Virus record (IMG/VR): IMGVR_UViG_3300043410_000336
Location: 1-43,312 of that record
Source: a virus
DNA length: 43,312 bases
Reading direction: 5' to 3' (one strand)
Shown here: piece by piece, positions 7,006 through 19,442 of the stretch
Layout of the letters: every line of letters begins with the position of its first letter
Position numbering within the stretch: position 1 is the stretch's first letter
Translations under genes and position numbers: made by a program
The notes under the pieces: generated by a model
Told to the model about the DNA's origin: nothing
Seen by the model: only the letters and a program-made list of their open reading frames with translations
Database searches by the model: none

Positions 7006-9465
7006 TCAGGAAAAAAAGAACTCTGAATCCTGAACCCCCTCCAACGCCAATGTTCCACGGGTAGGCAGCGGTTCAAGTTCCAACTCATTCGGCAGTTTAT
7101 CAGCGAACTGTTGCAACACATCCTGCTGGTACATATCGATGAAGGCTGGCTTCACGCAGTCTCGCAGGAACATCGACATCTTTGCGGCGTGAACGCCGAA
7201 ACTATCGTGAACCATCCCGTAATGATGAATGCCAGCTTTAAGACCACGCATGATGGACATGCGGAGCAAAGCTGCGTCCATTGAATGGACGAAGTTAGGA
7301 GCGACTGCCAAAGCCATATCTTTAGAGGAGAGGCGCTGCGTGTCGTGTTTCAATTGAAGACGCACACGGACATTGCCATCAAGATATGTCTCGACCCGAT
7401 TTTTCTTGGCATCACTACGGTAGTGAACAACCTCGAAACCGTCAGGCGTAACCCACGACATGCGCTTGTCATACGCATTGCCCATGAGGTTGTCATTTGC
7501 CCACTTCGTGTATTCACGCGCTGCTGTGCTGATCCAGCGCATTGCTTCTTTTCCTTTGACCACTACCTCATCGATGGCTTCCCAGATCAGCTTGGAAAGC
7601 AGCACCATGTGCTTCGTGTGTTCCTCCGTATTGTCGGCATTCCACGCACAAGGATGACCGTCCTTTATTTTTTCCAGCACAGCCTCGCGTGTGTACTCCA
7701 TGCACGAGGCGAACGTGCCAGCGTAAGGAACGACCATGACCTGACGCTTGGTGATCTTTCGATCAATTCCAAACTTGATCAGGTTTGCACACTCGACGGG
7801 AAACTGGTTGCTCTCGCGCATCAGCTTCTCGACGGTCTTGTCAGCTACATCTTGGTAGATGTCCTGACGCGACATGTTAGGGACGAGGTTCACGCTCTTG
7901 CCACCAACCTCGTCGCGCAGCATGGCGCTGTAATGTTGGAGGCCGCTGCATGTTGCGTCCACGGGCGTGACCATGTGCGACATGAAACCGTAACCTTGTC
8001 GCCAGAAGGCAGACCACTCGAAACAAAAGCGAAGGAACTGGAAAGGCTCGCTAGCCGTAGTCCAACGCAGATCGTGCTTGGGGTCTTTTGCAACGGAGAA
8101 AATCAATTCCTCGTTATCTTGTACCCAGTTCACACGTTCTTGAAGCGAAACCTTATCGTTGCCGTAAGCATTGGCTCCTGCAATTGCCAGCCAGCATGCC
8201 TGTTCCTCGTTCTCAATCGGCTCGCCATGTGCGAACTCAAGCAGCGCCTTCGTGCTGTCTGGTCCTTGAGGGTTCAAGAAGACAGGCAGCGGGTAGGCAC
8301 GGCCTCGACTGTCGAGATTGTGCGGGAAGTACACTTCCTTTTCTGTGCGGTAGGCACGAGCGATGGCGATGGTTGAGAGGACCAGCAGACGCTTGCTCTT
8401 GACCTCACGGTTCTCGCTATGGATCAGGAAGCAGAGCTTGTCGTGCGCCTTGGTGATCTCTTCGTCCACGCGATAGCCTTCAGGCTTCTTCGGCAAGTCT
8501 TTGTCGTTTGCCAGAGGAAGGCCAGCAATGCCTCCGCCACGCTGGTACATGGCCCACTCCAGAACGTCGAGGACGTTACGGTTGATGCGCCACGGCGTTT
8601 CCTGCAAGGCGTTGATCGCAGGGATGACCTGAGACCAATCCTTCGCCATCAGGCGGTCTTTGTCCTTTGCGTTGGTTCCTTTGACCAGCGGGTAAGGCTT
8701 GGTCTTCACCGTGTCGAGATAGCCACCACGGAAGAGGTTGCTAGCGGACCACGGTATAGGAGGGCAGAGCATAGGCTTGTAGAGCATGAACTCCAGCACG
8801 CGAGACGCGAGGGTCTCTTCAATGTGCTGCGTCAACTCCTGAGCAGGATCGACAAACGTCGAGCCACGAGGACAGACGACGAGGCCCGTGCTGTCACGGA
8901 ACCACACGAGGAGGGCATGGCCGATAACCAGCTTCTCGTTCTGTGACCATTGGTTCCACGAAAGCTGTTCGGCATGGAAGTAGTTGAGGATCGTCCGCTT
9001 GCGCCAGTCACGAGGGTAGGTCCGCTTGTCGAAGGTCTTGAACAGCTTCTTGAGCAGAGCCTTGCGGTTCTCGTTTTGGGCAAAGAACCGTATGCGAAGC
9101 TCGTCGTGGACCACCTCGCCAACCTTCATGCAAAGGGTGACGGTCTTCAAGCGACGACGATGAGTGAGCGGCATCAGGTTGTAGAGGGTCTTGCTGAACA
9201 GGTAGGCCAGCACTTCCGGCTCCAGACCGGATTCGACCATGAGACGGATCGCTCTCAGGTTCGATCCTGAGCGATTGGGATCGTAGTTTGCCAGCATCTG
9301 TTCGACGGTGTGAACGAACTTGGACGTAGCTTGAGTGGTGTATGTCCTGCCAATTTTGGACTCAGACCACGCCTGTCTCTTGTTGTGCTTTTGGTTGTCA
9401 CGGTCGCGACGAATGTACGCATCACGATACATGCGATCTTCGACCTGTAGCTGTTGGTCGTGCAT
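7006..9465 (-). CDS. Single-subunit DNA-directed RNA polymerase (T7 gp1-like)
   Basis: 819 aa from the ATG at 9465 (GAGGTG six to seven bases upstream); a GTG at 9495 would add ten residues but lacks such a site. T7 RNAP has 883 aa. Catalytic residues are in place: Asp503 in PVDATCSGLQHYSAMLRDEVGG, Arg569/Lys573/Tyr581 in DRKITKRQVMVVPY, and the second metal Asp in VHDSFGV near the C-terminus. It transcribes middle and late phage genes from the CACTATA promoters and defines the T7-like group. A phage promoter upstream suggests it boosts its own synthesis, and an operator-like repeat pair in the leader could repress it during lysogeny. Confidence 0.98.
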   Translation of the reverse strand: MHDQQLQVEDRMYRDAYIRRDRDNQKHNKRQAWSESKIGRTYTTQATSKFVHTVEQMLANYDPNRSGSNLRAIRLMVESGLEPEVLAYLFSKTLYNLMPLTHRRRLKTVTLCMKVGEVVHDELRIRFFAQNENRKALLKKLFKTFDKRTYPRDWRKRTILNYFHAEQLSWNQWSQNEKLVIGHALLVWFRDSTGLVVCPRGSTFVDPAQELTQHIEETLASRVLEFMLYKPMLCPPIPWSASNLFRGGYLDTVKTKPYPLVKGTNAKDKDRLMAKDWSQVIPAINALQETPWRINRNVLDVLEWAMYQRGGGIAGLPLANDKDLPKKPEGYRVDEEITKAHDKLCFLIHSENREVKSKRLLVLSTIAIARAYRTEKEVYFPHNLDSRGRAYPLPVFLNPQGPDSTKALLEFAHGEPIENEEQACWLAIAGANAYGNDKVSLQERVNWVQDNEELIFSVAKDPKHDLRWTTASEPFQFLRFCFEWSAFWRQGYGFMSHMVTPVDATCSGLQHYSAMLRDEVGGKSVNLVPNMSRQDIYQDVADKTVEKLMRESNQFPVECANLIKFGIDRKITKRQVMVVPYAGTFASCMEYTREAVLEKIKDGHPCAWNADNTEEHTKHMVLLSKLIWEAIDEVVVKGKEAMRWISTAAREYTKWANDNLMGNAYDKRMSWVTPDGFEVVHYRSDAKKNRVETYLDGNVRVRLQLKHDTQRLSSKDMALAVAPNFVHSMDAALLRMSIMRGLKAGIHHYGMVHDSFGVHAAKMSMFLRDCVKPAFIDMYQQDVLQQFADKLPNELELEPLPTRGTLALEGVQDSEFFFS

Positions 9466-9487
9466 AGATGACACCTCTGCTGTAGCT

Positions 9488-9566
9488 GTAAGCACGGTGT
9501 GAACACAGAGTTTTGTATCTTTAATTGTTACTGTAATTCACACAGGAGTATGCACGGTGCATACAC
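9488..9566. promoter_or_regulatory. Operator-like repeat pair in the RNAP leader
   Basis: gtaagcacggtgtgaacac (9488-9506) and gtatgcacggtgcatacac (9548-9566) agree at 15 of 19 bases and lie exactly 60 bases apart, about six helical turns. The second contains a perfect 8-bp palindrome around one base. Between them is AT-rich sequence (around 9507-9540) that could hold a host promoter for RNAP. This looks like a dimeric repressor site pair; the binding protein is unknown. Confidence 0.5.
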
Positions 9567-9588
9567 AGGGAGGGTGCTGTCTTCCCTG
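9566..9588 (-). promoter_or_regulatory. 5' transcript hairpin after the RNAP-leader promoter
   Basis: Arms caggga and tccctg with an 11-base loop lie at the start of the transcript expected from the promoter at 9587-9603. It mirrors the stem behind the 6953 promoter and would stabilise the 5' end of the RNAP mRNA. Role inferred. Confidence 0.4.
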
Positions 9589-9603
9589 TTATAGTGGGGG
9601 GTT
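9587..9603 (-). promoter_or_regulatory. Phage RNAP promoter before RNAP
   Basis: Minus-strand ACCCCCCACTATAACA, identical over the core to the site at 14367-14383. It would let phage RNAP transcribe its own gene and everything downstream. Confidence 0.8.
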
Positions 9604-9703
9604 GGGTCATGTGGGCCTCCCTTTGATTTCATTTTTATTGCTTCAGGTCCACTAGCGTATTGACTCTGGCAACGTGAGTCAACGAGATAGAACACCAACA
9701 AAA

Positions 9704-9840
9704 TCAGGTGGTTACACCAGTTTTGCACAGGGACTGTAAATCCGCTGGCTTAGCCTTCGCAGGTTCGAGTCCTGCTTCCCCCACCATTTACTAAGTGCTT
9801 GATTCTGGTAGGGTTTTAGGCGACTGGTGTAACCACCTGA
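9704..9840. repeat. 17-bp perfect inverted repeat flanking attP
   Basis: tcaggtggttacaccag (9704-9720) and its exact complement (9824-9840) enclose the tRNA-Tyr fragment at a distance of 103 bases. Perfect inverted copies around an attachment core suggest recombinase or accessory-protein binding sites, or a large hairpin in the leader RNA. Seen in sequence; role inferred. Confidence 0.75.
9731..9786 (+). other. Putative attP core: 3' part of tRNA-Tyr(GTA)
   Basis: The sequence runs from the anticodon loop (ggaCTGTAAAtcc, anticodon GTA) through a class II variable arm (tggcttagccttcgc) and a perfect T arm (gcagg-ttcgagt-cctgc) to ttcccccaCCA. The D arm and the 5' acceptor strand are absent, so it is not a functional tRNA. 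Integrases of temperate phages often recombine at tRNA 3' ends, where the phage copy restores the gene after insertion. Position beside the integrase supports an attP site targeting a host tRNA-Tyr. Confidence 0.85.
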
Positions 9841-9864
9841 GAGTATCTTTAGAGGTCTAAGTTG

Positions 9865-9890
9865 TTTGGCAATTTTGGCAATTTTGGCAA
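9865..9890. repeat. Tandem 9-bp repeat, possible integrase arm sites
   Basis: Three consecutive copies of (t)tttggcaa lie between attP and the integrase stop, followed by a related inverted element (cggttgcc). Short direct repeats beside the core are typical of arm-type sites bound by the integrase N-terminal domain. Assignment is inference. Confidence 0.45.
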
Positions 9891-9919
9891 CGGTTGCCAG
9901 CAGCGTTCTTAGAGTGTTC

Positions 9920-10948
9920 TCACCTCACGGCCTCCCGTGATTTGGTCCTCCCTTCCAGAATCAGCACGCCTTCTTCAAGGTCGTCGGTGTTAAAGTGAAT
10001 GTAACGTCTGGTGGTCATCAGGCTTCGGTGTCCCATCCACTTCATCAGGCGAAGCTCAGACATGCCGCCTTGTGCGAGACGGGTGGCGCATGTGTGACGC
10101 AGGGTGTACGGGACCAGCGTGTCGTCCGTGATGCCAGCCGTGGTTCTGGCTCTGCACCATTCGTTATAGAAGGTGTCGTAGCAGATCATGGACCAGACCA
10201 GAGGCGAGGCTTGCGGGAGCCGTCTGTGTGGGTCACGGGCGTTCGGTACAGGAAGACCTTTGAGCGCCCAATCCAGCGCCGCCTTCGCCTTGCCTGTCAG
10301 CGGCAGGGTTCGGGGCTTGGCTGTCTTGGTGTCCCAGAAGGTGACGGTCGTCTTGTCCACAGATCGGGCGACATCTGTGCGGACCAACTTCAATGCCTCG
10401 CTTGGACGACAGCCTGTGCCTAGCAGGAAGTCAGCGAAGTAGCGGTAGGGTTCGGACAGGCCACCAAGCATGGCTCCCTCCTCGTTGCCCGTCAGGACAC
10501 GGATGCGATCATTGTCGGACGGGAAGAAGGGGATGACAGGGACGGTCGAGATTACTTCCTCATCCACCCCGTAATGGAGCAGACGCGAGAGCTTCGCCAT
10601 TTTGGTGTTGAGGGTGCTTTCAGCGTTGCCTTTGGCCTCAAGCGTTTTGAGTACATCCTTGACCACCTTGCGGTCGATCTTGGACACAGGCAGATCAGCG
10701 CCGATAAGCTCGACCAGTTCGTCGCAGATGCGGAACGCATTGCGCTCGTCCTTCGTGCCGCCGTAGCACTCACGCTTCCAACGAGGGAAGAGTGCGCCAA
10801 CGGTAGCAGAAACCTTCTCGACCTTTTCAGCAGCGTAAGGATTGGCCTCGAAAGCTTCGGCAGCTTCCAGCGTAGTGAACACGCGACGAATGCGCCGCCC
10901 GTTCACATCTGCGCTGCCCATGTACTTGTCTTTATGTTGCCACGCCAT
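9920..10948 (-). CDS. int: Tyrosine recombinase (phage integrase)
   Basis: 342 aa. The N-terminal third has an arm-binding/SAM-like part, then the catalytic domain: Arg181 in GTGCRPSEALKL, Lys208, Arg284 in YTLRHTCATRLA (the usual first His of this box is Tyr281, a common variant), His307 in WMGHRSLMTTRRY and the nucleophile Tyr316. It integrates and excises the phage genome at attP. The attP-like tRNA fragment lies directly downstream, and the gene is coupled to an upstream winged-helix gene (TGATG overlap). An integrase in a T7-like phage marks a temperate relative of an otherwise lytic group. Confidence 0.96.
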   Translation of the reverse strand: MAWQHKDKYMGSADVNGRRIRRVFTTLEAAEAFEANPYAAEKVEKVSATVGALFPRWKRECYGGTKDERNAFRICDELVELIGADLPVSKIDRKVVKDVLKTLEAKGNAESTLNTKMAKLSRLLHYGVDEEVISTVPVIPFFPSDNDRIRVLTGNEEGAMLGGLSEPYRYFADFLLGTGCRPSEALKLVRTDVARSVDKTTVTFWDTKTAKPRTLPLTGKAKAALDWALKGLPVPNARDPHRRLPQASPLVWSMICYDTFYNEWCRARTTAGITDDTLVPYTLRHTCATRLAQGGMSELRLMKWMGHRSLMTTRRYIHFNTDDLEEGVLILEGRTKSREAVR

Positions 10949-11268
10949 CAGAGCTTGTCCTTCAGTTTGTTGTAAAACTTCTGGCCTTCTTTGCTCAGAG
11001 TAAGCTTTCGCAAACGGCGGTCGTAATCGTCCTCGACGCGATCAATGAAACCCATGCCTTTCTCTCTGTCATAGCGGCGTTCGGTCCAATAGCTCACGTT
11101 ACGCGAGACTGAACCGCCCGTTAGATTGAGGTTGTGTTCAACATCTTTCTGCGTGCATTCGCCTCTACTTGCGATGAACAAGAATGTTCTTAGCGTTTGT
11201 ATCTGAAGCTCAGGAGAAACCTCCTTTGCTAGTAGGTCTAAGATGTTTAGAAAGGCTGCGGGTGTCAT
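10948..11268 (-). CDS. Winged-helix (MarR-like) DNA-binding protein
   Basis: 106 aa from the ATG at 11268, with GGAG nine bases upstream; a TTG at 11283 is an alternative. The order of elements is that of MarR-type winged helices: helix (LQIQTLRTFLFIAS), HTH (CTQKDVEHNLNLTGGSVSRNVSYW), wing (GMGFIDRVEDDYDRRLRKLTLS) and a final helix (KEGQKFYNKLKD). It is cotranscribed with, and overlaps, the integrase. That makes it the best visible candidate for a lysogeny regulator or recombination directionality factor, possibly acting at the operator pair by RNAP. Regulation is inferred. Confidence 0.8.
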   Translation of the reverse strand: MTPAAFLNILDLLAKEVSPELQIQTLRTFLFIASRGECTQKDVEHNLNLTGGSVSRNVSYWTERRYDREKGMGFIDRVEDDYDRRLRKLTLSKEGQKFYNKLKDKL

Positions 11269-11284
11269 AGGTGCATACTCCAAG

Positions 11285-11482
11285 CTAGAACTTGACGTAT
11301 GTATCTACCCCAAGTTCGCGCAGAGTATACAGCATTTCGGCACGGTTCCGCAAGCTTTCCGCTTCTTCAAGCATTCCATCCCAGACGGCATCCGACAGTT
11401 TTTTTTCAGTATGTCGGATGAACATATCAATCGGGACGACATTATCGGTATCGAGGTTCACCAGTTTGTGAATCTTACTCAT
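11285..11482 (-). CDS. Early hypothetical protein, 65 aa
   Basis: Starts at an ATG with GGAGG five bases upstream and overlaps the previous gene by eight bases. It is predicted mostly helical in the second half (AVWDGMLEEAESLRNRAEMLY). No domain recognised. Its early-region position suggests host takeover or regulation, but nothing in the sequence shows this. Confidence 0.7.
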   Translation of the reverse strand: MSKIHKLVNLDTDNVVPIDMFIRHTEKKLSDAVWDGMLEEAESLRNRAEMLYTLRELGVDTYVKF

Positions 11483-11726
11483 CGTTTCCCTCCAGCATGT
11501 CGATAATTGCCAAGCTAGAGGTCTGGCAGTCGCGAGCGATGATCTTGAGGAGAGTGCGTGTTCTGGCTATTTCACGGCACACAAAGCCGCACATCTCGTG
11601 ATCGGTCAGAGCTTCAAGACGGGCGACACAATCTGACACCGCCACGCTCGTCTGCCACATCTGTTCCTGCGCGTCGAAAAGTTCGTCGTGAAAAATGTTC
11701 ATAAGAGCTTCGGTTTTGCTCATCAT
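11475..11726 (-). CDS. Early hypothetical protein, 83 aa
   Basis: Starts at the first of two adjacent ATGs with a strong AGGAGG six bases upstream. It is all-helical in appearance, with Cys residues in the middle (SDCVARLEALTDHEMCGFVC) and a polar end. No family recognised. It overlaps the next gene, as in a tightly packed early operon. Confidence 0.7.
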   Translation of the reverse strand: MMSKTEALMNIFHDELFDAQEQMWQTSVAVSDCVARLEALTDHEMCGFVCREIARTRTLLKIIARDCQTSSLAIIDMLEGNDE

Positions 11727-18053: not shown

Positions 18054-19442
18054 TTAGAACTTCAGTTCCACATTGCCATCAAAGAACCATTGAGGAAGGG
18101 GACCGAAGAGAAACTCTTTGTCGATAACCGGAACGCTGGTCACGCCATCCCTGCGAATTGCGTCACCACGGATTTCAATGAGAACCATGTGTGTCGCGTG
18201 GAACAGGGCAGCAGCCAGAGCGCCAACATTGTAGGCAAACGAGTTGTCACATGCCTTGGACCACATTTCGTTCTCAAGAAACAGACATGCGCCTCTGCAC
18301 ATTTGCAGAACCGGACATTTAACGCACTCTTCGCGTGTAGACCAATGGTAAGCTTTCTTCAAACGGATGTGATCGAAAGCATTCAGATGGCCCATGTTGT
18401 GGTCGGTGAGTGCCGACATGTTCTGGCAAGTCATCACGTTGCCGTTCATATCGACGGCAATGTTGTCCTCGCGATCCATGCCGCATTTCTGGCCCAGCGC
18501 ATCGGCTGGACGCTTCATGGCAATCGACTGCAAAAAGGTCTTAAGCTTGGTTTCGACGGAATTGATGTTCATAGTGAAGCCACGGATAGCTTCGTAGAAC
18601 ACCGTGTGCGTCAGACGTTTTGATGTATGATCGTCCAGAACCGACAACGACATGCCGCCTTCGTCGTAGGGCAGCAGGATTTCTTCGGTTGTCATCGGAA
18701 CGTAGCGTGGATCGATGCCAAGATAGTGACCAATGTACTCACGGGCGATGTGCAGCGAGACGTTCTTGTTAGAAAGCACGCAGTTGAAGCCTATGTTTCC
18801 TTTTGGTGACAGTTGCTCGTAAGCGTATTTGATCCATTTAAGCTGTTCCGGGTTCTTCAGCGGGTCTTCGCCACGCTGAACCTCGTATGCGGGACCGTCA
18901 TGGGAGATACCAAGACCGAAACCAAGCTCAACAAGCCAGTCCACTTTCTCCTGATCAAGCAAAGAGCCGTTAGAAATGATGTTGAAGTCGGCTTTGGGGT
19001 AAAGTTTGCGGACGCCTTCAGCCAGAGGTTTGAGCGTCTTCCAGTAAACGAACGGTTCGCCACCCCAGAACTCGATGGTCGTGTGCGAGCCATCGCCAAT
19101 ATCGAACCATTCCGGCATCTTCGACAAAAACCAGTCAACCTTTTTCGGGTTGCCGTCAAAATCGTGCGGCTGCGCCGCCTGATTGCAGTAGGAACAGGCG
19201 TAATTGCACTTCAGGCCCATCTGAATCTTGATGTTCTTTGCCTTGCGGTGCTTTTTGCCGTGCTGTGAAGGCGAGACGACAATGGCTTTGCGCCAGTTAG
19301 GCGGTACAGCCGGAGGTTTCATTCCGACAGTTTCTAGGTTGAGCGGTTCGCCCGTGTCCTGCCAATGGCATTCAGAGGTAAGCGGATCATATACAAGCGT
19401 CCTGACGTTTCGTTGGTCGTCTTGCAGCAGAAGTTCAAACAC
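18054..19442 (-). CDS. Radical SAM/SPASM enzyme 2
   Basis: 462 aa from a GTG start with AAGGA six bases upstream. A 70-residue N-terminal extension (possible peptide-recognition part) precedes the radical SAM motif Cys79-x3-Cys83-x2-Cys86 and the SAM-binding GGEP at 127-130. The C-terminal SPASM domain is complete: Cys320-x13-Gly-x4-Cys339, then Cys373-x2-Cys376-x5-Cys382-x3-Cys386-x11-Cys398, ligands for two auxiliary 4Fe-4S clusters. Such enzymes are known from peptide and protein maturation (sactipeptides, ranthipeptides, sulfatase maturases). It lies 13 bases behind radical SAM enzyme 1 in the late operon, so it is made with the virion proteins. Substrate not shown; the Cys-rich fibre tip is the prime candidate. 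Confidence 0.93.
   Translation of the reverse strand: MFELLLQDDQRNVRTLVYDPLTSECHWQDTGEPLNLETVGMKPPAVPPNWRKAIVVSPSQHGKKHRKAKNIKIQMGLKCNYACSYCNQAAQPHDFDGNPKKVDWFLSKMPEWFDIGDGSHTTIEFWGGEPFVYWKTLKPLAEGVRKLYPKADFNIISNGSLLDQEKVDWLVELGFGLGISHDGPAYEVQRGEDPLKNPEQLKWIKYAYEQLSPKGNIGFNCVLSNKNVSLHIAREYIGHYLGIDPRYVPMTTEEILLPYDEGGMSLSVLDDHTSKRLTHTVFYEAIRGFTMNINSVETKLKTFLQSIAMKRPADALGQKCGMDREDNIAVDMNGNVMTCQNMSALTDHNMGHLNAFDHIRLKKAYHWSTREECVKCPVLQMCRGACLFLENEMWSKACDNSFAYNVGALAAALFHATHMVLIEIRGDAIRRDGVTSVPVIDKEFLFGPLPQWFFDGNVELKF

Follow-up and report, generated by a model that had tools for sequence, protein, structure and literature searches.

A candidate integration-sensitive RNA stem around the tRNA-derived attP of temperate T7-like phages

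In phage lambda, the sib element spans attP and works as long as attP is unbroken, whereas integration separates it from int; its action depends on a transcript that passes the terminator tI. In T7, the early RNase III site R1 lies upstream of gene 1 as a compact hairpin that has no link to an integration site. Precursors of rRNA form long-range RNA stems with a large loop, and these are cut by RNase III. The retroregulation of lambda int by the downstream sib element has been described (PMC5300877). T7-like phages of this kind pair a lytic programme with an integrase by means that are only hypothesised so far; LUZ100 and T7-like cyanophages are described as integrating rarely or unstably (PMC10134795, PMC8776855). 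Here I describe an inverted repeat that encloses the tRNA-derived attP of a T7-like phage, that recurs in related phages, and that appears to encode a stem in mRNA.

The window, that is, the whole stretch of DNA analysed, is a 43,312-base IMG/VR virus record in which the minus strand carries nearly all genes. It was found to be the genome of a T7-like phage (Autographiviridae), as it encodes a T7-type RNA polymerase (RNAP), a T7-type terminase, a primase/helicase, and a family A DNA polymerase, and its early region has the order MarR-type regulator, integrase, attP region, and RNAP (Table 1). The homology of the RNAP to its relatives starts at MHDQQLQV near 9467. The MarR-int-RNAP order is also annotated in pelagiphages and roseophages, and in most relatives the MarR gene directly precedes int. 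The MarR-int-attP-RNAP module of temperate T7-like phages, such as the HTVC019P group and LUZ100, is present in the window phage too. Elsewhere in the window, a radical SAM domain protein is encoded beside the structural genes (18054-19442; phrog_1802, E=1.6e-60), and a thymidylate synthase gene (5-697; phrog_85) matches Roseobacter phage CRP-4 along 183 bp with 78% DNA identity.

Table 1. Features of the early region and the attP region in the window.
Feature	Position	Strand	Basis
T7-type RNA polymerase	7006-9495	-	PF00940 E=1.7e-87
GTATGCACGGTGCATAC palindrome upstream of RNAP, separate from the stem	9548-9564		sequence
mRNA stem 3′ half, RNAP side, ACUGGUGUAACCACCUGA	9704-9721	-	repeat search; fold
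attP core: tRNA-Tyr(GTA) 3′ part, anticodon stem to CCA, 56 bases	9731-9786	+	exact match to bacterial tRNA-Tyr genes
AATCAAGCACTTA, candidate IHF site, between the core and the integrase-side arm	9792-9804	-	full consensus match
mRNA stem 5′ half, integrase side, TCAGGUGGUUACACCAGU	9823-9840	-	repeat search; fold
tandem TTGCCAAAA-type repeats (three, period 9) and one inverted copy, by the int 3′ end	9865-9899	-	sequence
tyrosine integrase, 342 aa	9920-10948	-	PF00589 E=3e-18; phrog_1
MarR-type winged-helix regulator, directly upstream of int	10948-11283	-	PF12802; phrog_9665

The first-pass annotation had read a tRNA-Tyr fragment beside the integrase as attP. This reading is supported by exact matches to bacterial tRNA-Tyr genes, by the adjacent tyrosine integrase, and by the same place of attP in relatives. 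The fragment sits inside the repeat, between the int and RNAP genes and antisense to both, and no complete tRNA was found in the window by ARAGORN. When a 55-base pattern from the fragment was searched against one genome each of 84,980 species, it was exact in only six contigs, all of them with complete tRNA-Tyr genes in alphaproteobacterial MAGs that are titled Beijerinckiaceae (four), Hyphomicrobiales, and Candidatus Raskinella; a bacterial tRNA gene thus contains the core sequence without change. From these matches, the group of the six MAGs (four labelled Beijerinckiaceae) is the likely host group, and the window phage probably integrates at tRNA-Tyr. The tRNA-Tyr sites in the six MAGs are empty, with the arm sequence absent nearby, and these host-like genomes have no integrase relatives. 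The best integrase matches among 397 genomes of the order (Hyphomicrobiales) are 33-38% identical. No prophage with the window arms was found, and an exact search for the arms and the tRNA fragment among viral contigs gave no match. A prophage reading of another genome, G708, was set aside, as its related integrase lies beside a complete tRNA-Leu, which is a different arrangement. At this locus (L219, G708:C1 near 118111), the integrase is followed by the complete tRNA-Leu and then by a tRNA-like 3′ remnant; judged by this order, it resembles the end of a prophage that supplies an entire tRNA as replacement. For HTVC022P, integration at tRNA-Cys has been reported (PMC12753301).

The inverted repeat around the tRNA-derived attP, claimed at first as 17 bp, is real and is one base longer. 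Its 18-bp arms (TCAGGTGGTTACACCAGT on the RNAP side and ACTGGTGTAACCACCTGA on the integrase side; positions in Table 1) are 100% complementary and 101 nt apart. None of the shuffled versions of the region equalled this repeat, and no further copies of the arms exist in the window when up to 3 mismatches are allowed (0 expected in shuffles). Folded as the mRNA strand, the region reaches -77.5 kcal/mol (z=-5.7) with the 18-bp stem formed; the opposite strand also folds (z=-4.3), as any perfect repeat must. Because the arms of the window phage contain no mismatches, the evidence on the strand comes from relatives. Rfam covariance models gave no match at E<=1 in the region from 9000 to 11500, and no convincing terminator was found on the mRNA strand from 9400 to 11600.

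Is such a repeat common in temperate T7-like phages? In each of 143 distinct int-downstream regions, I took the highest-scoring inverted repeat whose loop measured 80-180 nt, and IMG/VR was scanned with integrase alignments to add further clades. A score of at least 10 was found in 48 of the 143 regions (5.7 expected), of at least 12 in 15 (0.33 expected), and of at least 13 in 5 (0 expected), where many of the regions are closely related and not independent, so that the independent cases number nearer seven clades. The repeat had been thought unusual for attP; this survey revealed that it is common in temperate T7-like phages. It is found in pelagiphages, in Pseudomonas phage LUZ100, and in several uncultured clades, and most of the stems found come from phages with the MarR-int-attP-RNAP module. 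The arm sequences differ among clades yet pair within each phage (L139, L142, L165, L173, and L191 are further examples), and the tRNA targets differ too. The HTVC019P-group pelagiphages have GTAGAGGATAGTTG/CAACTATTCTCTAC around a tRNA-Cys core, and pelagiphage arms include AGTTAAAGGATAGTTGA. HTVC109P (GTAGGAGCGGA/TCCGCTCCTAC) and HTVC105P (GAAGTAGCGGA/TCCGCTACTTC) have a tRNA-Leu core, while the arms are ATAGTTAATG/CATTAACTAT in Votkovvirus S28C10 and TGCGGTAGTGGAAAG/CTATCCACTGTCGCA in LUZ100. The 5′ half of tRNA-Leu is enclosed in L139, L141, L142, L143, L145, L165, and L173, and the 3′ half in L150, L152, L154, and L191. The tRNA piece in the loop may be a 3′ half in antisense (the window and L005), a 5′ half in sense (the L141 clade and HTVC105P), a 5′ half in antisense (HTVC022P), or a 3′ half in sense (the L150 clade). 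Throughout, the anticodon region, the expected place of exchange, has one arm on each side. A tRNA-like fold made from the fragment was rejected, as the half in the loop can be 5′ or 3′ and can face either way, with no common tRNA fold. An invertible segment was also rejected; no relative has the same core flipped between the same arms.

The trait is not universal. The closest relative, L005, shares the tRNA-Tyr core, and its repeat, similarly placed, is 10 bp long and differs in sequence; no other relative has this same core, and the 10-bp stem alone is not significant (p=0.17 over the whole region). L004 and L009, which are also among the closest relatives and have a tRNA-Leu core, show no convincing stem. 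A repeat considered for these two was dropped, since GTGTTTAC in L004 derives from the tRNA-Leu D-arm and is absent in L009. A roseophage repeat was not counted, being strong in two phages (CRP-403 and L121) and lost in L117 and L118. The integrase-bearing relatives CRP-125, BB8, Pasto, P-SCSP2, and ProddE are also without a clear stem. In three pelagiphage-type contigs (L053, L069, and L103), a full-length int is joined almost directly to RNAP, without an attP core and without a stem. Since these contigs keep RNAP, its expression does not need the stem. The pelagiphage integrases (L023, L035, L037-L039, and L041) are about 290 aa long and are without the N-terminal 50-70 or so residues of the others, in which an arm-binding domain would be expected; the attP of these phages is also without the tandem TGTGCCA repeats.

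The arms were compared within three clades. The cells are paired at 98.5, 91.7, and 98.5%, as opposed to at most 71% when slid, and each clade has two pairs changed on both sides. The covariation score was equalled by 34, 0, and 2 of 500 shuffles, the weakest control (34 of 500) being that of the A7 clade with 5 sequences only. As for the paired changes, pelagiphages show G-C replaced by A-U, the GCGGA group A-U replaced by U-A and U-A by G-C, and the L141 clade, at two pairs, U-A replaced by C-G. Matched arm changes alone would equally fit two sites for one protein. On the int-to-RNAP strand, however, the internal mismatches are about 16 G.U to 1 A.C (p ~1e-4), a count of distinct positions that was compiled by hand and depends on the grouping chosen. 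Without the edge pair and a fixed G.U pair, it is 14 to 1 (p=0.0005). The repeats were found with one equal penalty for every mismatch type, and those in shuffled regions have 77 G.U and 82 A.C. Some preference for G.T could come from C-to-T bias of the coding strand, though a ratio of 16 to 1 is hardly to be had in this way. This strand-specific excess of G.U points to RNA base pairing and not to DNA-protein sites, because nothing in a double-stranded site would favour G.T above A.C on one strand. Furthermore, the stem had a mean pairing probability of 0.91-1.0 in 16 of the 17 regions folded as mRNA, and often a lower one on the other strand. The arms thus combine standard pairs and compensatory changes above controls with the strand-specific G.U excess, as a conserved RNA does, and on this comparative ground the stem and its strand are well supported. 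A recombinase site, a regulator site, and a large stem had all been proposed for the repeat; the comparison favours the large stem, formed in mRNA.

It could still be argued that the arms are opposed DNA sites for one protein (integrase arm-type, excisionase, or MarR) that serve a recombination complex or repression. The position around the core suits an attP complex, and, measured from the anticodon, the arms are placed alike in the window and L005, at about 25 and 95-98 bp. The candidate IHF site between the core and the integrase-side arm matches the IHF consensus, WATCAANNNNTTR, in full. In many relatives, int is followed by tandem TGTGCCAAC, AGTGGC, or TGTGACA repeats, with TGTGCCAAC / AGTGGC repeats in L004 and L005 similar to the tandem repeats in the window, which are candidate integrase arm-type sites; these separate repeats already look like arm-type sites. 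The arms of the L141 clade do resemble them (GCGTGACA vs TGTGCCA), but this likeness is absent in the window and the pelagiphages. Moreover, the short pelagiphage integrases are without the N-terminal part, where an arm-binding domain would be positioned, and their phages have kept the repeat. The arm-centre spacing shows no clear helical phasing either; early spacings of 119, 140, and 150 bp resembled multiples of 10.5 and hinted at DNA sites, but more loci gave about 115-164 bp with no clear steps. As for MarR, its gene is just upstream of int in most relatives, but the arms are not palindromic in most clades, as a pair of MarR operators would be, and are only partly so in the window. Work cited by the LUZ100 authors places MarR sites on either side of the RNAP promoter (PMC10134795). 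The palindrome upstream of RNAP in Table 1 is a candidate MarR operator and would suit this role better than the stem arms; a related sequence lies near 9489-9505. With the mismatches being G.U and not A.C on one strand, which is unexpected for a double-stranded site, I regard sites for one protein as unlikely, though not negligible.

The stem might instead be a processing site mainly for the RNAP mRNA, with its position around attP being incidental. The RNA-type evolution of the arms agrees with this, and the stem shares its genome position, from the last early gene to RNAP, with T7 R1. A compact hairpin would do for this purpose, yet the arms bracket the core in every examined clade with a clear stem. 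In addition, the three contigs without attP have no stem though they keep RNAP, which one spacer deletion could explain. I consider this account rather improbable. Still far less probable is a fold of the same strand as single-stranded DNA that serves as a recombination substrate, like integron attC and CTXphi attP: G.T pairs would be tolerated there too and the strand bias would be equal, but the stem is 20-100 nt away from the anticodon stem, the expected crossover, and does not form the recombinase site, and the genome is that of a double-stranded DNA phage with an ordinary tyrosine integrase of phage type. A chance repeat or a local duplication without function, as the lack of a convincing stem in L004 and L009 and the non-significant stem of L005 might suggest, is hardly credible against 18 perfect bases where 0 are expected and the same arrangement in many relatives.

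The reading I favour, with the balance about even, is that the inverted repeat encodes an mRNA stem that straddles attP, is split by integration, and works like lambda sib retroregulation. The arms would encode the two halves of an RNA stem in an mRNA running from int through attP to RNAP. Since the stem would enclose the attP RNA, only read-through transcripts of the free (circular or replicating) phage would form it. Integration would exchange the DNA within the loop and leave the arms at opposite prophage ends, one by int and one before RNAP, and would abolish the stem because no prophage transcript would carry both arms. This separation of the arms is expected from the geometry of the loci in the window, the pelagiphages, LUZ100, and others. 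The stem may be a double-stranded RNA processing site, probably for RNase III, on the read-through early mRNA. Cleavage would destabilise the int mRNA in lytic growth and give the RNAP mRNA its own 5′ end, while the int transcripts of the prophage, without the stem, would escape cleavage. I infer the transcript spanning both arms, the action of RNase III, and the effect on int and RNAP; the analysis itself shows the arms, their recurrence, the covariation, the G.U strand bias, the predicted fold, and the position around the tRNA-derived core.

Some observations bear on this proposal. The two arms of LUZ100 enclose its annotated terminator T4, and thus only read-through transcripts would carry the stem; some LUZ100 transcripts do read through T4 (PMC10134795). 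A stem of 10-14 bp makes a short substrate for RNase III, which counts against its involvement. The int gene of HTVC022P is highly expressed at 1-2 h of infection (PMC12753301), and its mRNA is therefore not strongly depleted early. Regardless of the role of the stem, integration would put RNAP at the end far from the early promoters.

If the proposal is true, the stem could tell the virus whether it is inserted. A stem confined to unintegrated genomes, between int and RNAP, would be a simple candidate for the control that reconciles an integrase with lytic growth. Dismantled by integration, a regulatory RNA helix with strands flanking the recombination site would be a new integration sensor that is widespread in temperate T7-like phages with various tRNA targets; I put forward this wider claim a little more tentatively than the role of the stem. 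No published account of the stem was found in the open-access literature, although an earlier mention is possible in the main pelagiphage and T7-like prophage papers, which lie outside that scope. Searched passages of four papers (PMC10134795, PMC11092137, PMC12753301, and PMC8776855) are silent on any stem or repeat that surrounds attP. LUZ100 and HTVC022P are culturable phages that carry such stems.

How does the stem compare with the known systems? It shares with T7 R1 the place in the early region upstream of RNAP, but its loop of 100-150 nt contains attP. Compared with the stems of rRNA precursors, it is much shorter, and its loop holds an integration site and not a mature RNA. The closest likeness is to lambda sib. 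Both are cis elements downstream of int across attP, the arms here would likewise be separated from each other by integration, judging from the geometry, and the terminator in the loop of LUZ100 resembles the tI/sib arrangement; the part of RNase III is proposed here by analogy. In contrast, the lambda hairpin lies wholly beyond attP, whereas here the strands of the stem flank attP and integration would cut the stem itself. If it works in this way, the principle of lambda sib would have been realised a second time and independently, in some of the most abundant marine phages.
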